From: Curvibacter soli
Lineage (GTDB): Bacteria > Pseudomonadota > Gammaproteobacteria > Burkholderiales > Burkholderiaceae_C
Assembly (NCBI RefSeq): GCF_029211125.1
Contig: NZ_JARGEN010000018.1
Location: 1-64,000 of the forward strand
Direction of reading: 5' to 3'
DNA: 64,000 nt
In this document: positions 59,828-61,000 of the stretch, piece after piece
Layout: the number at the start of each line of letters is the position of its first letter
How positions within the stretch are numbered: position 1 is the stretch's first letter
Notes under the pieces: model-generated
What the model was told of the DNA's origin: nothing
The model's database searches: none
Seen by the model: only the letters and a program-made list of their open reading frames with translations
Position numbers and translations under genes: made by a program

Positions 59828-61000
59828 TCAAGGCCGGAAGTATTCCACAGCCCGCCGCGCCACATCCTCGCCGGGCTCGGCCACCGGCACCGGCCACGCC
59901 AGCGTGCGGCCCTGCCAGTCCGGGGGCGGCGCGTAGACGGGTGCGGCGAAGGACGCGAACGCAAGCGGCGCGGCGCGGTGGCCCGCGTCGGGATACGGCG
60001 CCGCGTAGGCCGGGGCATCCAGCCCGCCGTCGTCCGGCGCGCCGGGAATGAACAACGCCCCGCTCCAGCGCTGCGGCTGTGCCGCCAGCAGCGCTCGCGC
60101 CAGCGGCGCCGCGCCGCCATGGGCTACGAGCACGGCGTCCCGCAGACCGAGCCGCTCCGCCAGTTCGCCCAGCACCCGGACATGCCAGTCCAGGCCATGG
60201 CCCGCCGCCTTCTTGGGCTTGTCGCTGCGGCCAAAGCCGACCAGGTCCGGCACCACCACGCGCGCGCCGGCAGCAACCAGCACTGGCAGCATGCGGCGGT
60301 AGAGGTAGCTCCAGGCCGGTGCGCCGTGCAGGCACAGCCAGGCCGGCTGGCCCGGCGCGGGCTGGGCGGACGCTGCATCGAGGTAGTGCAGGCGCAGCCC
60401 CGCCAGCGCGGGCAGGTCGCTCACGTAGTGCGGCGGCCAGGGATAGCCGGGCAGCGCCTCGAAACACGCGTCGGGCGTGCGCAGTGCATCGGGCCGCAGC
60501 GGGTGGGCGGCCCGGGCCTCGTCGCGTTGCGCAGCCCGGCGCTGCTGGAAGAAGCCTGCGAGCAGCGCCGCGCTTTCGCCGGCCAGCACGCCGCCGCTGA
60601 CCTGCGTATGGTGGTTGATGCGCGGCTCGGCGAACAGATCGAGCACCGAGCCCGCGGCGCCGGTGCGCGGGTCTGCCGCGCCGTACACCACGCGCGCCAG
60701 CCGCGCGTGCAGCATGGCACCCGCGCACATGGCACAGGGCTCCAGCGTGACGTAGAGCGTGCAGCCTTCGAGCCGGTAGTTGCCCAGCGTCTGCGCAGCG
60801 GCGCGCAGGGCGGCGATCTCGGCATGCGCGGTGGGGTCGTGCCCGGCGATCGGGGCGTTGCGGCCCGTGGCGACGATGCGTCCATCCTTCGCCACCACCG
60901 CGCCCACGGGCACCTCGCCGGCCTGCGCGGCCTCGCGCGCCAGCGCCAGGGCGCGGGCCATGCAGGCGGCGTCTTCGGCGCTGACGGTGCCGGCGGTCAC
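59828..61000 (-). CDS. tadA: tRNA adenosine(34) deaminase TadA fused to a degenerate alpha/beta-hydrolase
   Basis: A 390-residue two-domain protein. Residues about 8-155 are TadA, which converts A34 to inosine in tRNA-Arg(ACG): zinc/catalytic motifs HAEIAAL and [14 protein letters not shown], then FFQQRRA. Residues about 185-390 resemble haloalkane dehalogenase-type alpha/beta-hydrolases: [18 protein letters not shown] (oxyanion loop) and [15 protein letters not shown]. At the nucleophile elbow, where relatives have QDWGG or GxSxG, it reads VAHGGAAPL, with no Ser or Asp nucleophile, so the second domain is probably catalytically dead. The frame is continuous, with no shift at the junction. 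It overlaps the small membrane protein gene by four bases. Confidence 0.92.

Follow-up and report, generated by a model that had tools for sequence, protein, structure and literature searches.

A dehalogenase-type domain fused to the tRNA deaminase TadA has repeatedly lost its catalytic residues and retains a constrained core

The window analyzed here, a 64,000-nucleotide stretch of Curvibacter soli DNA (contig NZ_JARGEN010000018.1), carries on its reverse strand, as do all of the features described below, a fused tadA-hydrolase gene of 390 amino acids (59828..61000; GTG start, TGA stop; no internal stop). The TadA half (residues 8-162; 60515..60979) matches the equivalog PRK10860 with 197.3 bits against a cut-off of 150, and its model matches the known structures 2b3j (Z 26.9 over 151 residues) and 1z3a (Z 26.7 over 155). 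The zinc/proton-shuttle motif H59-A60-E61 (60818..60826) is invariant in 53 aligned rows, as are P88, C89, M91, and C92 of the zinc motif P88-C89-A-M-C92 (60725..60739). The fused gene is the sole TadA-like match in the genome, which also encodes tRNA-Arg(ACG), the TadA substrate. A linker (residues 167-176; 60473..60502), whose positions 167-169 and 171-172 hardly vary among fusions but do so among standalone enzymes, leads into a reduced haloalkane dehalogenase (HLD)-type domain (residues 177-390; 59831..60472) that was assigned by profile, alignment, and predicted model and lacks the catalytic triad. A complete TadA and an HLD-type domain are joined in a single open frame, as the preliminary description of this DNA had proposed.

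The dehalogenase profile PRK00870 matches residues 171-313 only, that is, profile positions 2-141 of 302, and its score of 144.2 bits lies under the cut-off of 265. Both motifs previously described as kept were found, the oxyanion loop at residues 224-239 and the second motif at 251-262, and the nucleophile elbow VAHGGAAPL (residues 292-300; 60101..60127), which reads mostly VVQDWGGxL in intact relatives, indeed contains neither Ser nor Asp. In the alignment, the nucleophile column holds Gly, with the nucleophilic Asp of DWGG missing, and the acid and His columns are gaps. The nucleophile loss originally claimed for this domain was thus borne out, and the change goes further: the acid and His are gone as well, the loss is mostly deletion, and many relatives have the full triad. 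The window copy is shorter than intact fusions (453-478 amino acids, median 464) because the cap and the acid/His segments have been deleted. The parts of the domain that persist include a stretch that is near-fixed by alignment in copies without an intact triad (dead copies hereafter), at residues 255-264 including K263 (60209..60238); a cap remnant, likewise kept in dead copies by alignment, at residues 335-344 including G340 (59969..59998); and the last helix of the hydrolase fold at residues 378-387 (59840..59869), which in the predicted model is kept despite loss of the His loop.

AlphaFold2 models had a mean pLDDT of 88.7 and a pTM of 0.72 for the window protein, and 88.1 and 0.68 for the intact relative L078. 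Residues 169-390 of the window model aligned with 1b6g (Z 21.2, 215 residues, rmsd 2.8), which identifies an HLD-type alpha/beta-hydrolase fold, and by this model the C-terminal part is a trimmed scaffold, last helix included, that should fold well. The lowest-confidence blocks (161-180, 251-270, and 321-350, the last with pLDDT 57-71) hold several of the best-conserved residues; this would fit contacts that are missing from a monomer model, loops often being less certain anyway.

Directly downstream of the fused gene, in conserved synteny, lies ldcA (peptidase S66 by profile match; 58823..59797). Upstream, the open reading frame list contains a 92-amino acid frame (60997..61275) that overlaps the GTG start of the fused gene, has no Pfam or NCBIfam match, and begins with a hydrophobic N-terminal stretch; it was detected beside 2 of 53 dead and 0 of 88 intact fusions.

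The fusion is widespread. The count of TadA fusions in relatives suggested by the preliminary description gave 31 of 60 one-per-genus genomes of the host family, with TadA alone in 24 (20 genes read; G005, G029, G051, and G058 judged from match coordinates) and no strong TadA match in five (G006, G008, G041, G047, and G054); in G047, a hydrolase of the fused type is truncated at a contig edge. Lengths of 152-237 amino acids for the 20 TadA-only proteins read mean that no long drifted tails are hidden among them. Three of the genomes without a strong match, G041 (100% complete), G006 (96%), and G054 (90%), have tRNA-Arg(ACG) and no TadA match over the family cut-off (loci L236-L238 and L244), and in G006 ldcA is present with no tadA among the listed open reading frames beside it; these are possibly TadA-less comamonads, or else reflect assembly gaps or masking. 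A scan of GTDB contigs returned at least 554 related loci, and the names among 80 of them include Acidovorax, Hydrogenophaga, Rhodoferax, Ramlibacter, Polaromonas, and Curvibacter. None of 72,556 plasmid records carried a copy covering 80% of the query. Among 150 order-wide genomes, 136 of which matched at E 1e-40 or better, fusions, called here from match coordinates, occurred only in the host family and in family f3 of the same order, where four of five genomes have one. A frameshift or a recent artefactual join, which would have undone the preliminary description, was ruled out: fusions occur in single-contig genomes too (e.g., G004, L003), and the join lies at the base of the clade.

For comparison among copies, 180 loci were collected. 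One (L171, a standalone hydrolase) is without TadA, and the other 179 gave 163 distinct proteins; removal of two incomplete ones (L102 and L112) left 161, comprising 88 intact fusions, 53 dead fusions, and 20 TadA-only proteins. Loci L061-L140 were picked by similarity to the C-terminal part of the window protein, and short frames were the main reason for choosing 18 of the 20 stretches L161-L180. The 53 dead copies among 141 fusions therefore do not measure prevalence; a fairer figure comes from the 31 one-per-genus fusions, in which the triad is intact in 14 and not intact in 17. The 88 intact proteins include L024, which belongs to the second fusion, that of f3.

On a tree of TadA plus LdcA (LdcA being available for 148 of the 161 rows), the host-family fusions fall on one supported branch (100) of 130 rows: 79 intact, 50 dead, and one TadA-only. 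The fusion is thus, as judged from these sequences, old and of single origin within the host-family clade. Because ldcA is found within 400 bases downstream on the same strand at 49 of 53 dead, 78 of 88 intact, and 18 of 20 TadA-only loci, it seems that the hydrolase was inserted between genes that were already long-standing neighbours. The TadA-only row nested inside the fusion clade, L160 (genome G028), represents complete loss of the domain, and a stretch that by eye looks repeat-like lies between its tadA and ldcA, at the position of the hydrolase. A further TadA-only protein, L146, falls inside the fusion clade when the tree is built from TadA only, but not on the TadA plus LdcA tree, and is ambiguous. 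A single origin for all fusions was rejected, since the HLD parts of f3 group with standalone enzymes (96/94, supported) and lack K263 and G340; on the same HLD tree, L190 carries the label standalone but probably represents a fused copy truncated where its contig ends. The f3 fusions L196-L199 have an intact triad and a Met still visible at the start position of standalone HLDs, and L199 (G439) has a TGA inside the matched stretch. More speculatively, this second, independent fusion might mean that the pairing itself is favoured.

Inactivation, as opposed to fusion, has occurred many times. The dead label requires 20 state changes on the TadA plus LdcA tree, at least 10 of which are forced by supported branches, and 27 on the TadA-only tree, with at least five forced. 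Standalone enzymes outside the clade are intact, and inside it intact and dead copies are intermixed, which makes loss the natural direction; regain is unlikely because the deletions are large. The trees therefore indicate that the hydrolase was intact at first and that the dead state is derived and recurrent. Elbow, cap, and triad are decayed across the 53 dead copies, none of which has all three triad residues. Asp occupies the nucleophile column in 11, in which either the following Trp/Tyr or the acid and/or His is lost; Asp is at the acid column in eight and His at the His column in four. Two of the three residues are kept in five dead copies (L006, L063, L066, L077, and L123): L006 retains the acid and His, and in L123, from Verminephrobacter, the nucleophile is the sole changed column of the three. 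Over most of the cap stretch the gap fraction in dead copies is 0.58-0.78, and the window copy, too, has lost a large part of its cap. A nucleophile elsewhere, the other finding that would have overturned the preliminary description, did not appear in the elbow, where all 53 dead copies are without a G-x-[SCD]-x-G. That a standalone HLD compensates was also considered and rejected: among the matches listed, which extend to about E 7e-12, just one of the 17 genomes with a dead fusion, G040, has such an enzyme. G040 carries a dead fused copy (L180) together with an intact standalone HLD (L182), which with L181 represents the standalone type nearest to the fused ones.

Despite this decay, 45 positions are conserved at 0.85 or more in the 53 dead copies. 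The main kept stretches are the linker PLRxDALRTP, GLRxH, LxLH, W230, GxR, PDLxGFGxSDKPK, H268, H273, and PxPDxG. We estimated dN/dS by the Nei-Gojobori method, choosing core columns from other lineages and then testing them on pairs of dead copies that had been held out, and found values of 0.061 for the core (440 codons), 0.615 for the rest of the domain, and 0.206 for TadA in nine hand-chosen pairs, some of which share a held-out clade and some of which are near synonymous saturation. The value for the rest was 0.58 in a set of eight pairs, likewise hand-chosen, for which the core had been defined from the very data tested. The whole domain is constrained in 12 intact pairs (0.048 core, 0.143 rest). 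A total of 87 positions are near-invariant in intact fused and standalone enzymes, and in dead copies 27 of these are kept (0.85 or more), 15 lie between, and 45 fall below 0.5, including D295, W296, G297, and the acid and His columns. Synonymous codons in the core vary about as freely as in TadA (share of the top codon, 0.65 in 16 columns of the core vs. 0.63 in 58 of TadA), a pattern that speaks for selection on the protein rather than on the DNA, and on which we rejected a DNA- or RNA-level element as the cause. With a predicted fold that is kept and selected and with its catalytic residues lost, the domain is by sequence a putative pseudoenzyme. The fusion, its age, the loss, its recurrence, and the constraint are established at the level of sequence. 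The earlier notion of a conserved, catalytically dead partner stands in part: signs of a retained role are present, but Asp-Asp-His is kept in 88 of 141 fused proteins and in 14 of 31 one-per-genus fusions.

What the core is conserved for can be read in more than one way. The hydrolase may be trapped on a needed TadA, with selection only preventing misfolding that would harm TadA and with the kept residues being those most needed for a soluble alpha/beta mini-fold. This is a serious rival, although we consider it rather unlikely. In its favour, standalone HLDs commonly share 32 of the 45 core positions, and part of the core constraint may accordingly, on this comparison, be fold upkeep. The linker residues are not unique to fusions either, an idea that we rejected because, in untrimmed frames, R169 occurs in 2 and D171 in 5 of 14 standalone enzymes, where the other linker residues are variable, not absent. 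Outside the core, relaxation is clear (dN/dS 0.58 and 0.62), the domain has been wholly lost in L160, and TadA has almost no fusion-specific residues. Moreover, dead copies were mostly found by similarity to the C-terminal domain of the window protein, and the sample thus favours a conserved core, which strengthens this explanation. However, K263 and G340 are absent from the standalone fold (0 of 14), yet near-fixed in fusions (1.0 in intact and 0.98 in dead copies), and 15 charged or His, 12 Gly or Pro, and 16 hydrophobic residues among the 45 do not make a typical fold-core list. In addition, a single stop after TadA would drop the domain, yet 17 dead one-per-genus fusions stand against one clear loss (L160), counted among 20 TadA-only genes read, 18 of which were placed on the TadA plus LdcA tree. 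These data suggest that the dead domain has probably gained a non-catalytic role tied to its fusion to TadA.

Two other functions are less likely still. The oxyanion-loop His, W230, and the GFGxSDKP loop, all of which lie at the mouth of the active site in alpha/beta hydrolases, belong to the core, as does the PxPDxG cap remnant, and the former cleft could therefore bind a small molecule, so that the domain would tune TadA or a partner pathway allosterically. Such a ligand sensor is quite improbable, as the cap that closes the cleft is largely deleted in the window copy and in most dead copies, and model confidence is low at 321-350. A new catalytic activity from a re-invented site composed of H225, H268, H273, D252, D260, and D338 would agree with the weighted conservation of 0.97 or more at each of these residues in dead copies, but standalone HLDs, too, have H225, D252, D260, and H273 at 0.91 or more, and there they lie outside the triad; we regard this activity as very unlikely indeed.

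The non-catalytic role probably arose as follows. In the ancestor of the fusion clade, a standalone HLD-I-type dehalogenase gene was joined in frame at the point between tadA and ldcA, and the fused domain, while still an enzyme, probably took on a second, non-catalytic job that needed attachment to TadA. On this reading, the dehalogenase-type activity then became dispensable, and it was lost some 10-20 separate times, the window genome being one case, through elbow mutations and deletion of the cap, the acid loop, and the His loop. What was kept is a compact alpha/beta scaffold with fixed residues, namely, the PLRxDALRTP linker, PDLxGFGxSDKPK, two His, and PxPDxG. The job itself might be docking or positioning beside the TadA C-terminal helix, aiding the handling of tRNA-Arg(ACG) or TadA stability. 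This helix touches the anticodon stem-loop in solved TadA structures. In Staphylococcus aureus TadA, the C-terminal helix is needed for anticodon stem-loop binding (PMC8216470), and since the linker follows this helix, a position near the tRNA is plausible. Nonetheless, among the TadA domains of 140 fused proteins only L97 and, weakly, L101 stand out as specific to fusions, which argues mildly against a large new interface on TadA. Likewise, the C-terminal domain is not basic in the 53 dead and 87 intact copies (mean net charge per 100 amino acids, -0.32 and -0.79, respectively), which argues mildly against a basic RNA-binding surface, and L160, having TadA alone inside the fusion clade, indicates that the domain can be lost. 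We are fairly confident of the role as such, and place it at TadA or the tRNA only tentatively. Recruitment of the dehalogenase at fusion as a TadA accessory module, for tRNA presentation, dimer control, or editing range, with its activity then repeatedly discarded to leave a series of intact, dying, and dead copies, is a more speculative and somewhat doubtful extension.

With some 10-20 separate deaths of the hydrolase in a single family, the fusion provides a natural experiment on the passage from enzyme to pseudoenzyme, as intact, one-mutation, and heavily trimmed stages coexist with a core kept by selection. K263, G340, H268, and the linker are named residues for mutation, and with this fusion it can be tested if bacterial TadA is able to use an accessory module comparable to the domain by which ADAT3 presents tRNA. 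Family models name just half of such a protein, with TadA over its cut-off and the hydrolase half under. No description of a TadA-HLD fusion was found in the titles and abstract beginnings of the open-licence PMC literature; the parts are known, and a dehalogenase-derived pseudoenzyme on TadA with repeated independent inactivation is likewise undescribed in these titles and abstract beginnings.

Compared with known systems, the window protein resembles bacterial TadA (1z3a and 2b3j) in its complete domain, zinc and catalytic motifs, fold, and the tRNA-Arg(ACG) in the genome, and differs by the C-terminal hydrolase-derived domain, since the solved bacterial TadA chains listed for comparison, engineered fusions aside, have 144-183 amino acids. 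With the HLD-I haloalkane dehalogenases (DhlA, 1b6g; DpaA, 7avr; PRK00870), the C-terminal domain shares origin and fold (Z about 21-22), and intact fused relatives keep the full triad, whereas the window copy, besides being part of a TadA fusion, has lost the nucleophile together with the Trp that follows it, the acid, the His, and a large part of the cap. The eukaryotic wobble deaminase ADAT2/ADAT3 is similar in that wobble deamination is aided by a part other than the active deaminase, and tRNA is recognised by the N-terminal domain of ADAT3 (PMC8216470). ADAT3 may by analogy serve as a precedent for a non-catalytic, tRNA-presenting part. In ADAT2/ADAT3, however, the part that is inactive is itself a deaminase subunit and has an N-terminal domain of its own, whereas in the window protein the deaminase motifs are intact and a dead hydrolase fold sits on what is, from its sequence, an apparently active TadA. 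Alpha/beta-hydrolase pseudoenzymes such as the neuroligins also reuse the hydrolase fold without catalysis, and they are not known to be related to tRNA enzymes. The TadA fusions differ from them in that here the loss is recurrent within one bacterial family.
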